From Candidatus Saccharimonadota bacterium (lineage in GTDB: Bacteria; Patescibacteriota; Saccharimonadia; Saccharimonadales; Saccharimonadaceae), in the NCBI GenBank assembly GCA_017515105.1, contig JAFWHO010000004.1, positions 186,001-250,000 on the forward strand: a stretch of DNA of 64,000 nt, read 5' to 3'. Shown here piece after piece: positions 3,977-27,733 of this stretch. Positions within the stretch are counted from its first letter, which is position 1. Every line of letters starts with the position of its first letter. The notes beneath the pieces were generated by a model. It saw nothing but the letters and a program-made list of their open reading frames with translations. It searched no databases and was not told where the DNA came from. The position numbers were made by a program, and so were the translations under genes.

Positions 3977-4034
3977 CTCCCTTTGAGGCAGTCATATCTA
4001 CCACTAATCATATTTTTATCACGCCATAATCCTG

Positions 4035-4294
4035 TTGACACTTTTTCTAAAGTGTTGTATAATCGTTCTGCTGTCTACCATCATGGAGACAAGCTTCTAA
4101 TATAGTCTTGCGGGAGCAGATACGATCTTTTAAAAAACCATACAACTTAATAAATATTTTTTCACCACTGATTCCACAGTGGCAATGATGCAGCCTGCAA
4201 AGATCGTTTTCTCCATTTTGCCTCCCGCAAGATATCGAACATTATACGGGTAAAACCCGTCTTTGGTCCCATCTGATGATGGGGCTGTTTTTTA
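4035..4294 (+). ncRNA. Tandem ncRNA family, unit 1
   Basis: Promoter TTGACA 4035-4040, 17 nt, TATAAT 4058-4063; predicted start ~4070. A 5' hairpin forms at the start (TGTCT/AGACA). TCTTGCGGGAG (4106-4116) pairs with CTCCCGCAAGA (4222-4232), and inside it ACGATCTTT (4122-4130) pairs with AAAGATCGT (4199-4207), with an apical CCACTG/CAGTGG hairpin. Then comes the box GAACATTA (4237-4244), hairpin ACGGGT/ACCCGT (4246-4260) and a terminator (CCCATC/GATGGG, then T6). No coding ORF. The four units share architecture and 3' motifs while the central domain differs, as expected for paralogous trans-acting RNAs. Confidence 0.75.
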
Positions 4295-4302
4295 TGCTAT
4301 AG

Positions 4303-4572
4303 TTGACAAAAATGCCAAAGTGGTGTATAATTTACTCTGCCTCCTTTTGGTGGTTTTATGTGTTGAGTGGAGGGGCGCGCCAAAAAACAACCTTATTTCT
4401 TAGATAGTGACACTACATTTGCTAACAACTATGCCACTTTCTGAACATTCATGATTGATCTGGCCGCCTATGTGGCCGGAGACTCCTTTCTAAAGGCGCG
4501 CCCCACCACAATGAACATTATTGGGTAAAACCCGTTTAGATAGATGCCCCATCGCGTGATGGGGCATTTTTT
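4303..4572 (+). ncRNA. Tandem ncRNA family, unit 2
   Basis: Promoter TTGACA 4303-4308, 17 nt, TATAAT 4326-4331; start ~4338. A 5' hairpin forms at once (CC-T-CC with GG-T-GG). The closing stem GGGGCGCGCC (4372-4381) pairs perfectly with GGCGCGCCCC (4495-4504), with flanking GTGG/CCAC. Box GAACATTA at 4513-4520 is followed by GGGT/ACCC (4523-4533). The terminator is GCCCCATC (4546-4553) with GATGGGGC (4558-4565), then T. No credible ORF inside. Confidence 0.75.
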
Positions 4573-4612
4573 ACGGTTTGGCACAGATGATTGCTTTATC
4601 GCTGTGGATGGC

Positions 4613-4857
4613 TTGACAATAATGCAATAATAATGTATAATCATGGTGTGCTACCAATTGGTAGTGCTAAGTAATTTTTTCATATCTCCGTGGGGTAGGT
4701 GCATTAAAGCTCTTACGTTGTTGGGGGATGGAAGACCGTCTCCCTTGAAAAAGAAAGGAAAAGCGTGTATGTGTATACCTCCTGCACCTACCCCGCAAGA
4801 ACATTAACGGGCATCGCCCGAAATTCAGAGCCTCATCGCATGGTGAGGCTTTTTTCT
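4613..4857 (+). ncRNA. Tandem ncRNA family, unit 3
   Basis: Promoter TTGACA 4613-4618, 17 nt, TATAAT 4636-4641; start ~4648. The 5' hairpin is CTACC/GGTAG. The closing stem GGGGTAGGTGCA (4692-4703) pairs perfectly with TGCACCTACCCC (4783-4794). Box GAACATTA is at 4799-4806, hairpin CGGGC/GCCCG at 4808-4820, and the terminator GCCTCATC/GGTGAGGC at 4830-4849 is followed by T6. A 64-codon frame running from here into unit 4 crosses the terminator and has no ribosome binding site. Confidence 0.75.
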
Positions 4858-4867
4858 CGTCGAAAAC

Positions 4868-5119
4868 TTGACAAAACTAGCAAAGTAATATATAATTATA
4901 TAGCCTCTATGAGGGCTTTGGGTTACGAATGCGGGAGTGGGCTTTTGAATAACATTTAACAACTTCAAGAAAAGGGTATAAGATAGCAAAAGGGTGTCCC
5001 CTACTAATTGTGCCTAGTAAGGGCCGCCAAAGGATCGCCTCCTAAAAGCCCCTTCCGCAACGAACATTATCGGGCAAACGCCCGCCACGATGCCTCATCG
5101 CATGATGAGGCATTTTTTT
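4868..5119 (+). ncRNA. Tandem ncRNA family, unit 4
   Basis: Promoter TTGACA 4868-4873, 17 nt, TATAAT 4891-4896; start ~4903. The 5' hairpin is GCCTC/GAGGGC. The closing stem at 4931-4946 pairs with 5044-5058 (one bulge and wobbles). An inner hairpin is CCCTACTA/TAGTAAGGG. Box GAACATTA is at 5062-5069, hairpin CGGGC/GCCCG at 5071-5084, and the terminator GCCTCATC/GATGAGGC at 5092-5111 is followed by T7. The tuf promoter starts 14 nt further on. Confidence 0.75.
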
Positions 5120-5132
5120 ACCCAGAATACTC

Positions 5133-24261: not shown

Positions 24262-24356
24262 TTAATATCAAGAAGGGGCGAGGGACCGGCCCGGTGACCC
24301 CCTACCAACCTAGCGTAAGCCAAGGTGGTAATTCCGGCCAAGAAAGGAAAGATATG
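24262..24356 (+). promoter_or_regulatory. SAM riboswitch (SAM-I/IV clan) in the metK leader
   Basis: The leader carries the class signature: ATCAAGAAGGGG, the kink-turn P2 region GAGGGACCGGCCCGGTGA then CCCCC, CCAACC, and GGTGGTAATTCC (24270-24340). ATATC (24265-24269) can pair with GATAT (24351-24355) as P1. That would bury the metK start codon (ATG 24354) when SAM is bound, so control is probably translational. No terminator hairpin with T-run is seen, which agrees. Assignment to SAM-I rather than SAM-IV is not settled. Confidence 0.88.
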
Positions 24357-25319
24357 TTCTACAGAACTGCGGAGAGCGTTTCTCCAAAACACCCAGACAA
24401 ACTATGCGACCGAATCAGCGATGCGATTTTGGACGCTTATCTTGCTGCCGACCCAGATGCTAGAGTCGCGGCGGAGACTTGCGGCGGACACGGCGTAGTG
24501 TTCGTAACAGGCGAAATTACATCCAAAGCCGACGACGTGGATGTCCCGGCCATCGTTCATCGCATTGCGGGCGACGATGTCGAGGTGCACACGAAGATTG
24601 TCAAACAATCGCCAGAAATTGCACAAGGCGTAGACACCGGTGGCGCAGGTGACCAGGGAATTATGATTGGCTATGCCTGTGATGAGACCCCTGAGCTATT
24701 GCCGCGCGAAGTGGTGCTAGCCCGCCGATTAAACCAATTCATTTACGACAAGCATCCATACGATGGTAAGACCCAGGTCACCATTGCGCCGGATGGCTCG
24801 ATCGATTCTATCGTAGCAAGCTTTCAGAATGTTTCGCATGATGAGCTCGAAAAACTAGTGAGTGATTTTATCGCTAAAGAAAAATTGGAAGGCAAATTGG
24901 AGCTACATCTAAACCCTGCCGGTGACTGGAACCAAGGTGGCTTTGACGCCGATACCGGGCTCACTGGTCGTAAACTAATCGTAGATAACTACGGCCCACG
25001 CGTAGCTATTGGCGGTGGATGTTATTCTGGTAAAGACCCATCCAAGGTGGATCGTTCCGCGGCTTATATGGCACGCCGTATTGCGGTGGATTACCTAAGG
25101 GAGCGCAAAGCGCATGAGGTCTTGGTGAGACTAGCCTATGCAATTGGTTATGCCGAGCCTCTCGAAAAAACAGTAATCATTGACGGCAAACCAGAAGAAA
25201 TTGAAGGCTACGACCTTACTCCGCGTGGAATTATCAAATATCTAGATTTGAAGCGCCCAATCTACGAAAAAAGCGCCGAGTACGGCCACTACGGCGAAGG
25301 ATTTGACTGGGATAAATAA
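24354..25319 (+). CDS. metK: S-adenosylmethionine synthetase
   Basis: Makes SAM from methionine and ATP. Motifs: SVSPKHPDKLCDRISDAILD at the N-terminus, TGGAGDQGIMIGYACDET (central GDQG loop), GLTGRKLIVDNYG and GGGCYSGKDPSKVDRSAAYM. 321 aa is shorter than the ~380 of most MetK; the shortening appears spread over loops and the C-terminus. ATG 24354 follows AAAGGAAAG; the longer frame from GTG 24294 would put the riboswitch inside the protein and is rejected. Feedback control is by the SAM riboswitch in its leader. Confidence 0.95.
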   Translation: MFYRTAESVSPKHPDKLCDRISDAILDAYLAADPDARVAAETCGGHGVVFVTGEITSKADDVDVPAIVHRIAGDDVEVHTKIVKQSPEIAQGVDTGGAGDQGIMIGYACDETPELLPREVVLARRLNQFIYDKHPYDGKTQVTIAPDGSIDSIVASFQNVSHDELEKLVSDFIAKEKLEGKLELHLNPAGDWNQGGFDADTGLTGRKLIVDNYGPRVAIGGGCYSGKDPSKVDRSAAYMARRIAVDYLRERKAHEVLVRLAYAIGYAEPLEKTVIIDGKPEEIEGYDLTPRGIIKYLDLKRPIYEKSAEYGHYGEGFDWDK

Positions 25320-25598: not shown

Positions 25599-25745
25599 TA
25601 TAATCGTTTTTGGAATGTCATAGCAAATTGCTTAGCAGCGCAGAGCACAGGATCAACATCGTGTGTCGTGCGCTGCTAAGCAGCAATAAGTCCCATTGTC
25701 TGTTGCGGTTCGAAAATGAACTACACATATCATGAAAGGAGATTT
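25599..25745 (+). promoter_or_regulatory. Promoter and long-hairpin leader of gene 25749
   Basis: TATAAT at 25599-25604. The leader contains GCTTAGCAGCGC (25630-25641), which pairs perfectly over 12 bp with GCGCTGCTAAGC (25670-25681), with an inner CAC/GTG pairing. AAAGGAG precedes ATG 25749. The hairpin has no T-run, so it is a leader structure and not a terminator. Confidence 0.55.
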
Positions 25746-25748
25746 GTT

Positions 25749-26726
25749 ATGCTAAACTTTCAAAAAGTAATACCTGAGAACTGGTCTGGAGTTTACGCTC
25801 CGACCGAAGAAGACCTCGCTTTTCTCGGTTTCTTCAACCTTGAGTTTTTAAAAAGGTATTGGAGAAAACAGGAGAGAATAACCGTCGGCCAAATCAAGAA
25901 AGTGCAGGCCCAGGTCGAGATGTTGGACGGTAAAACCATCGACGACGTCAAAGCGATGGCGGCCGAATTTGATCACCCGGCATTTCCCGAAATCGGTGTG
26001 CGCGATGGTAGTTGGGGGCGTCACCTTGAACCCCTCGATGACGATTTGAGAAATCGTGAACCGGGAGCTACCACACTAAATTATTGTGGTTGGTGCAGGT
26101 TTGGTTGCGGTGGTATATGCCGTCACGGGTACAAAATAACCACAATGTGCCTACTGATCCCGAAGGATCGAAACAACGGCAGTGGCGCATACGGGTTTGA
26201 AGAGTTTACCTTCAATACGCCATGTGCAATCGCAAACGGTACCCAGGAGCTCCTGGAAACCTGCGTGATGTACCTCAAGACTAGGCTTGCTGAGCTCAAG
26301 GAAAGGAAGGCCGAGATCGGTGAGATGATTAGCCTCATCATGGACTTGAAGGAGTCCGCCGAGAAGAAGCCTTATCTTGCAGGGCATAGGAACGCGGGAT
26401 GGTTCGAGGTCGGAGAAGACGTTATCTGTTTCGTTTCTAATAACTTCCAAGGCGCCCTCAAGAAAGGTATCTTCGTGACCGGAAAGGTCATCGATGGATA
26501 TCGACATGGCGATAGGTGCATCTCAGTCCGTACAGACGAAAAAGTCCACAATGGAAGCTTCTTAGAGGGGCACGGCCTTGGTTTCGGCCTGTGTAGACCA
26601 GAAGTTCTTCACGAGTGGGAATACAATTATCTCAAAACCCACCCTGAATACCTGAAGGTCTGGCTCCGAGCCAGCGCTGGCTTGAGCGAATTCGACCCCG
26701 CCGAGATGGCAGAGGCGTTCCGCTGA
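25749..26726 (+). CDS. Hypothetical soluble protein with a Cys-rich motif (325 aa)
   Basis: ATG 25749 follows AAAGGAGAT; the longer frame to 25716 has no ribosome binding site. No TM. Residues ~112-125 carry CGWCRFGCGGICRHGY, four closely spaced Cys that could bind a metal or an Fe-S cluster, with a further Cys at TMC. A predicted helical coil follows (LKERKAEIGEMISLIMDLKE). It stands alone with promoter, structured leader and terminator (26747-26784). No family recognised; the balanced codon use resembles the other orphan genes. Confidence 0.72.
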   Translation: MLNFQKVIPENWSGVYAPTEEDLAFLGFFNLEFLKRYWRKQERITVGQIKKVQAQVEMLDGKTIDDVKAMAAEFDHPAFPEIGVRDGSWGRHLEPLDDDLRNREPGATTLNYCGWCRFGCGGICRHGYKITTMCLLIPKDRNNGSGAYGFEEFTFNTPCAIANGTQELLETCVMYLKTRLAELKERKAEIGEMISLIMDLKESAEKKPYLAGHRNAGWFEVGEDVICFVSNNFQGALKKGIFVTGKVIDGYRHGDRCISVRTDEKVHNGSFLEGHGLGFGLCRPEVLHEWEYNYLKTHPEYLKVWLRASAGLSEFDPAEMAEAFR

Positions 26727-26784: not shown

Positions 26785-26876
26785 TACTGAAGACTCGTGG
26801 TGGGGCGAAATAAACCAGGTTTTAACAGATTATAGGGAGAATATTTGACTTTTTGTCGGAAAAAGCATAAATACTA

Positions 26877-26905
26877 TTGACTTATTTGTCGAAGTGTGCT
26901 ATAAT
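26877..26905 (+). promoter_or_regulatory. Promoter of the 565-nt ncRNA candidate
   Basis: TTGACT 26877-26882, 17 nt, TATAAT 26900-26905 with extended TGTGC. Predicted start ~26912. Confidence 0.85.
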
Positions 26906-26911
26906 TAAGAC

Positions 26912-27472
26912 ATACTCCGAGTTATGGGAGACGAAAGTCGCGTAACTTAAAAGAATACAAGATTCTAATACGTTTGTTTGTAAGAGGCGTTTTCTGATAA
27001 TCATGCACTGATTGTTAAACTCGATATGGCATCATCAGTTGAACATCCAGTTAGCTGGATGGAATCCTGAAAACTATGCGTTATCGAAAAGAAAACAAGT
27101 CTTAAGGCTGAACCGTAGCTCGTTAGGCGAGTGCAACTTCTTATTGCTCCCGTCATAGCGGGAAATATTAGAAGTCGTCTAAGCGGGGATGCTTGGCAAA
27201 ACGAGAGGAATCTTTGGTGGTTTTAAACCATATTCTTTATCGGTAGTAAGTAGTTTAAGTGAAAAAAACATTTTTGGATGAACGTATGACTATGATCATA
27301 TCGTCGGAAGAAAATGCGAAGTCATTTTGTACTTATCTATACAATCATTCAGGTTGCAAAAGAGCTTTGCGGAGTAGTACTGCTCGACCTGGAAAAAAAT
27401 AGAAAAAGGCATAATGATGTTTTTCACAACCCGAAAGGGTTTCAAGCCGCCATATAGGCGGCTTTTTCTATG
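26912..27472 (+). ncRNA. Candidate large structured RNA (~560 nt)
   Basis: Strong promoter at 26877-26905, intrinsic terminator AGCCGCC/GGCGGCT (27445-27463) plus T5, and no credible ORF between. Many local stems: CTCC/GGGAG at the 5' end; AGTTATG with CGTAACT enclosing a GAC-GAAA-GTC hairpin; CATCCAG/CTGGATG (27044-27061); GCTCG/CGAGT; CTTCTTATT/AATATTAGAAG enclosing CCCG/CGGG; TATGA/TCATA; a three-way junction closed by CAGGT (27350-27354) with ACCTG (27387-27391); and AACCC-GAAA-GGGTT before the terminator. The RNase P core (GAGGAAAGTCC), tmRNA ends and group I intron core were looked for and not found. Family unidentified. Confidence 0.65.
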
Positions 27473-27646
27473 TGCAATATTTCGCTCAATTGTTGGGGAT
27501 TTAACTGGCAAAATTATAGATATAAATCGTAGTTCTTGGAGTGTTTTTGTTGCAAAAATGGCATAAAAATAGCCCTCTATTTTAGCAAGGGGTTTAACAG
27601 ACATTTATAGATTGCGTAATAGATAAAAATACTTTTATAAACCGTT

Positions 27647-27733
27647 TGGTGGGCGGCGTGGGACTTGAACCCACACGGTATTGCTACCACAAGATTTTGA
27701 GTCTAGCGCGTCTACCAGTTCCGCCAGCCGCCC
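27647..27733 (-). tRNA. tRNA-Leu (anticodon CAA)
   Basis: Acceptor GGGCGGC with GCCGCCC, discriminator A and encoded CCA; a long variable arm (class II, GTGGTAGCAATACC) and T-loop GGTTCAAGTCC. The anticodon loop CTCAAAA gives anticodon CAA, decoding UUG. The second pair of the anticodon stem is a T-T mismatch. Confidence 0.95.

Follow-up and report, generated by a model that had tools for sequence, protein, structure and literature searches.

A large structured RNA candidate as the single cargo of small cassettes at tRNA 3' ends in Saccharibacteria

A 64,000-nucleotide stretch of a Candidatus Saccharimonadota genome (the window) contains a gene for a large RNA that very probably travels alone as cargo in a small mobile cassette plugging into tRNA 3' ends, and the RNA itself seems genuine and unlike the kinds so far described. 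The host is a tiny parasitic bacterium and, to our knowledge, the routes by which bacteria with very small genomes gain genes are poorly known. The RNA is tied to a gene-shuffling system in such bacteria.

RESULTS

Position and Signals of the RNA Gene

The elements of the RNA gene are as follows.

26877..26905, plus strand: promoter TTGACT-17-TATAAT, with TG ahead of the second hexamer
26912..27469, plus strand: structured RNA gene, ~558 nt, start inferred from the promoter and end from the terminator
27102..27198, plus strand: conserved core of the RNA (model R1), found in 8/8 copies
27259..27441, plus strand: 3' domain of the RNA (model R2), found in 7/174 genus genomes and weak in G081
27444..27469, plus strand: intrinsic terminator, with an 8-bp stem and T run at 27444-27464

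The initial annotation had placed an ORF-free region between a near-consensus extended promoter and a terminator, and both signals were found. The promoter is of the sigma-70 type with an extended -10 element, agrees with the consensus at 11 of 12 positions and was the top one of six promoter-like matches in 6 kb, a number below the mean of shuffled sequences (9.9). A related promoter stands ahead of the RNA in all eight copies, and the terminator hairpin is kept in six of the seven aligned copies, the seventh (G093) having a different end. The RNA gene is probably transcribed. The promoter stretch alone (26860-26914) matched many genus genomes by blastn, which suggests a strong promoter type common in the genus. 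The sense strand was indeed free of ORFs of 60 or more amino acids. An antisense ORF of 102 amino acids (27296-27604) overlaps the 3' end of the RNA, and its length is not kept, the largest ORFs in the other three complete RNA cassettes having 55-74 amino acids.

Folding and Covariation of the RNA

The many local helices that had been noticed in this region were borne out by a predicted fold of -168.7 kcal/mol, compared with -134.4 ± 6.7 for shuffled sequences (z -5.1), and none of 100 shuffles folded as well. The diverged copies G081 and G093 gave z values of -5.7 and -4.5, respectively. In the seven aligned copies, with an RNAalifold consensus of 183 pairs, paired cells reached 96.5% versus 94.0 ± 0.3% in shuffles, and the covariation score was 0.170 versus 0.127 ± 0.005. 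The covariation among relatives that had been proposed as a check was also observed, because 23 pairs were changed on both sides versus 9.3 ± 2.0 in shuffled alignments, a value reached by none of 500 shuffles, and slid partners gave only 2-11 such changes; further pair types showed no excess over shuffles (246/500). Much of the covariation signal comes from G093 because the other six copies are close, being 88-97% identical to one another.

Comparison with known families by cmscan against Rfam 15 yielded no gathering match in the RNA region and nothing credible up to E 10, and the models of ROOL, GOLLD, OLE and group I/II introns, against which the region was to be checked, were unmatched. 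Group I or II introns, tmRNA and RNase P RNA gave no match in the region up to E 10. In the entire window only two tRNAs and a SAM riboswitch (24262-24358, upstream of metK, 63.6 bits) reached the gathering score. In the host genome (G000), the bacterial type A RNase P RNA model RF00010 was unmatched and the tmRNA model RF00023 gave no match over the cut-off. The homologs and the compensatory changes support the reading of this region as a large noncoding RNA that is structured and falls outside Rfam. It represents a new candidate family among large bacterial RNAs, backed by covariation.

The small CCC/GGG hairpin before the terminator is kept as a hairpin across the aligned copies. The GAACAT motif followed by a hairpin at 27041 does exist, but the hexamer is neither enriched (25 in the window versus 33.8 expected) nor kept in relatives, which read GATCGT, GATCTT or GGACAT at this position. 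Kinship with the tandem RNAs upstream of tuf at 4.0-5.1 kb, which these motifs had been thought to echo, was rejected on the GAACAT counts, which are at chance level, and on blastn (best E 0.26). These tandem RNAs are four units of ~200 nt at 4010-5120, each showing by eye a promoter, paired ends, GAACATT, a CGGG/CCCG-type hairpin and a terminator, and they gave no Rfam match at the gathering score.

Copies of the RNA in Other Genomes

A blastn search of 174 genus genomes, in which short matches to about query 1-60 (promoter only) were excluded from the homologs, revealed five full-length copies (G176, G151, G092, G174 and G122) whose 86-90% DNA identity spans promoter, RNA and terminator in every case, as well as a diverged copy in G093 (72% identity). 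An eighth copy, in G081, was found with core model R1; here only the core is well shared (the 3' domain reached 13 bits, E 0.02), and the copy comes with a promoter and a terminator of its own and runs up to the 3' end of a tRNA-Ala gene. Model R1 thus detected 8/174 genus genomes and model R2 7/174, whereas in the order R1 matched 5/392 genomes, all of this genus (1/156 genera). A scan of the GTDB genome collection with a 5' motif returned six contigs, every one with Saccharibacteria in its title. A further DNA match in G011 (E 5.5e-4) was discarded as a 26-base chance match on a contig that is protein-coding by eye. Given its rarity (8/174), the RNA has no essential role in the genus.

The RNA Gene Is the Sole Cargo of a Cassette at a tRNA 3' End

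The initial annotation, supported as to a large noncoding RNA outside Rfam and unsupported as to kinship with the tandem family, had missed that the gene lies in a cassette at a tRNA 3' end with the following borders.

26798..27646, plus strand: the complete 849-bp RNA cassette, running from the core of the left end up to the base ahead of the tRNA-Leu 3' end
26798..26827, plus strand: cassette left end, of the TGGTGGGG..TTAAT..ACCAGGTTTTAACA type, compared in the 33 cassettes with a left end
27488..27653, plus strand: right-end element shared by the cassette family, with TTATAAACCGTTTGGTGGG as its terminus at the tRNA 3' end
27647..27733, minus strand: tRNA-Leu(CAA), the insertion target, beside a sortase gene and conserved in relatives

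Similarity with G176, G092 and G174 stops at 26798 and ~27653, and this 849-bp unit abutting the tRNA-Leu 3' end holds no cargo other than the RNA; the corresponding cassettes measure 854 bp in G176 and 850 bp in both G092 and G174. TGGTGG, which is complementary to the CCACCA end of the tRNA, occurs at both borders, and the TGGTGGG of the left end repeats the tRNA 3' end. In G122, which has variant ends, the left border reads TGGCTGAGC, like its own tRNA-Gln, and G151 has an internal deletion and has lost the left end. Six of the eight RNA copies lie at a tRNA 3' end, the tRNA at their right being tRNA-Leu in the window, tRNA-Val in G176 and G151, tRNA-Gln in G122, tRNA-Ala in G081 and, in G092, a tRNA-Val of which only part is present at the edge of the contig. 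The G174 cassette stands within an array that ends at tRNA-Met, and no neighboring tRNA was found for the G093 copy. The orientation of the RNA towards the right end is identical in the five copies having this right end, which is missing from G093 and G081.

The metK/tRNA-Leu/sortase interval is occupied by different DNA in most relatives, and in five (L016, L019, L021, L025 and L032) metK directly precedes tRNA-Leu. The ORFs flanking the RNA look chromosomal by eye. As to a phage or prophage location, scans of viral contigs with four RNA motifs found none of them, and blastn against phage records gave only a 37-base match to the promoter region.

Three side observations concern these loci. 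Upstream of its tRNA-Leu, L031 has a fragment of the tRNA-Leu 3' end repeated in tandem, the pattern that an insertion site used again and again would leave. In G174 (L107/L042), another cassette comes after that of the RNA, with a similar left end, a deformylase-like ORF (by eye) and a different right end at tRNA-Met, which suggests that right ends fall into sub-families. The variable interval that holds the RNA cassette also contains, on the metK side of it, a gene for a 336-amino acid protein with a Cys-rich stretch (25716-26726), for which neither a Pfam match nor a viral relative was found and PHROG gave nothing below E 0.47.

The Cassette Family across the Genus

The right end (query 27473-27653) matched 65/174 genus genomes, occurred at four places in the host's own genome and appeared twice within ~0.7-2.4 kb in several genomes. 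After excluding matches that stop before query position 170 or lack the terminal TGG, 48 distinct right ends were left in the loci examined, of which 28 abut a tRNA and 15 the left end of the next cassette, the other 5 abutting sequence whose start resembles a tRNA 3' end. For 33 of the 48 a left end was recognizable by a pattern requiring a starting TGG, and these define the complete cassettes, of 577-1710 bp; the RNA copies of G151 and G122 are not among them. The RNA lies inside 4 of the 33, where the largest ORF covers 19-36% of the unit, and is absent from the other 29, which have the same ends. In 27 of these 29 the largest ORF takes up at least 55% of the unit, L078 being a doubtful case with both strands open, and in the remaining two it takes up 34% and 28%. 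Most other cassettes hold one protein gene. Six of eight cargo proteins scanned had a Pfam match, to the CYTH, NUDIX, serine hydrolase, short-chain dehydrogenase, peptidase S51 and methyltransferase families.

In the order, the right-end family was present in at least 31/392 genomes and at least 2/156 genera, figures that are lower bounds because the query (L108:634-798, minus strand) spans part of the right end. It was not found in plasmids and phages; two viral contigs (L128 and L129) matched by chance an 18-mer of the right end and not the right end itself. Since protein cassettes share the ends without the RNA, and G093 and G081 have the RNA without the right end, cargo and mobility parts are separable, and both the role of the RNA and the mover of the cassettes are directly testable.

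Recombinase and Transfer

No recombinase was found among the listed cargo ORFs of the 33 complete cassettes, as judged by eye and, for eight of them, with Pfam. A PF00589 protein is encoded in 164/174 genus genomes, and nearly all of the 14 genomes whose loci were searched hold one Xer-type protein, some having others too; in the host genome the Xer-type recombinase lies in the region G000:C4:279662-280195. The cassette right end was at none of 25 PF00589 loci from these 14 genomes, and G174, which carries the RNA, had no PF00589 match. The RNA of the window is 92.2, 92.4 and 88.3% identical to those of G151, G092 and G122, respectively, and the Xer-type proteins of the same pairs are 68.9, 71.1 and 64.6% identical. 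RNA identity of 88-92% against 65-71% for these proteins therefore shows that the RNA has been transferred horizontally.

DISCUSSION

The cassette would insert at the 3' ends of tRNA genes in one orientation, through site-specific recombination in which TGGTGG..., a short sequence of the tRNA end, is the crossover site, and a circular form would carry the junction TTATAAACCGTTTGGTGGGG..TTAAT. Because the target is a tRNA end and the unit holds no recombinase, we infer that it is most likely mobilized in trans by a tyrosine recombinase, either the host Xer-type enzyme or one from a helper element. Three features, namely the size of the RNA, the conservation of its core and the fact that no peptide is conserved, suggest that it acts in trans as RNA. 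It might be a large folded molecule that serves the host or the element as a scaffold or by binding, and it would not be part of the moving machinery.

An RNA of the mobility apparatus itself (a guide, priming or packaging RNA) might be expected to stand alone inside the ends, as in 4 of 33 complete cassettes, and to keep its orientation towards the right end, as in the five copies with this end. However, 29 of the 33 same-end cassettes dispense with it, it is present in 8/174 genomes versus 65 for the right end, and two copies do without this right end, which makes such a role improbable. Because most cassettes lack the RNA and two copies lack the right end, we regard it as cargo. It is equally hard to believe that the RNA is a very divergent member of a large class found near tRNA genes, such as ROOL or GOLLD; the similar size, tRNA neighborhood and mobile context (PMC12286853) would agree with membership, but the models of ROOL, GOLLD and OLE were unmatched in the window at gathering score or E 10 and in two divergent copies at E 5, the four RNA motifs were not found in viral contigs, and phage records offered only the 37-base promoter-region match.

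Compensatory changes and a conserved promoter are not what a degenerate coding sequence, or ordinary intergenic DNA folding by chance, would leave behind, nor are fold z values of -5.1, -5.7 and -4.5 in three diverged copies. Although the antisense 102-amino acid ORF (27296-27604) would speak for such an origin, it is not kept and the indels are non-triplet, so that this origin is highly improbable. The preferred reading is a large RNA carried as cargo by a tRNA-end cassette.

The RNA resembles ROOL and GOLLD, yet it is not a member by model test. One ROOL has 659 nt and GOLLD often more than 800 nt, and both are described as often lying near tRNA islands in phages and prophages (PMC12286853). 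The likeness to these accounts lies in large size, many helices, mobile context and nearby tRNA genes; unlike ROOL and GOLLD, the present RNA has no Rfam match, resides in sub-kilobase Saccharibacteria cassettes at tRNA 3' ends, and is outside phages and prophages as far as searched.

Among mobile systems, tycheposons are elements of 4-200 kb with a tyrosine recombinase (PMC10872708). They and other tRNA-anchored islands (Islander, PMC4383910) share with the present cassettes the tRNA 3' end as target and a short tRNA-end repeat on the far side, but none of the 33 complete cassettes combines 4-200 kb with such a recombinase; the units are ~0.6-1.7 kb long, carry no recombinase gene and mostly hold one gene each. 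A search of the literature, within the portions that it covered, found no account of such cassettes or of this RNA. CALIN, integron arrays without integrase (PMC11389934), are similar in their single-gene cassettes, common ends, tandem arrays and lack of a cassette recombinase, and tandem single-gene cassettes without a recombinase are indeed what was found here. The present cassettes differ in being anchored at tRNA 3' ends and in their ends, a 30-nt left and a ~165-bp right element. It is an evenly balanced proposition that Saccharibacteria possess an undescribed cassette system of recombinase-less single-gene units stacking at tRNA 3' ends, a counterpart in function of the integron, and that among its cargoes there is a large RNA of a new class, which would confer its benefit as RNA alone.
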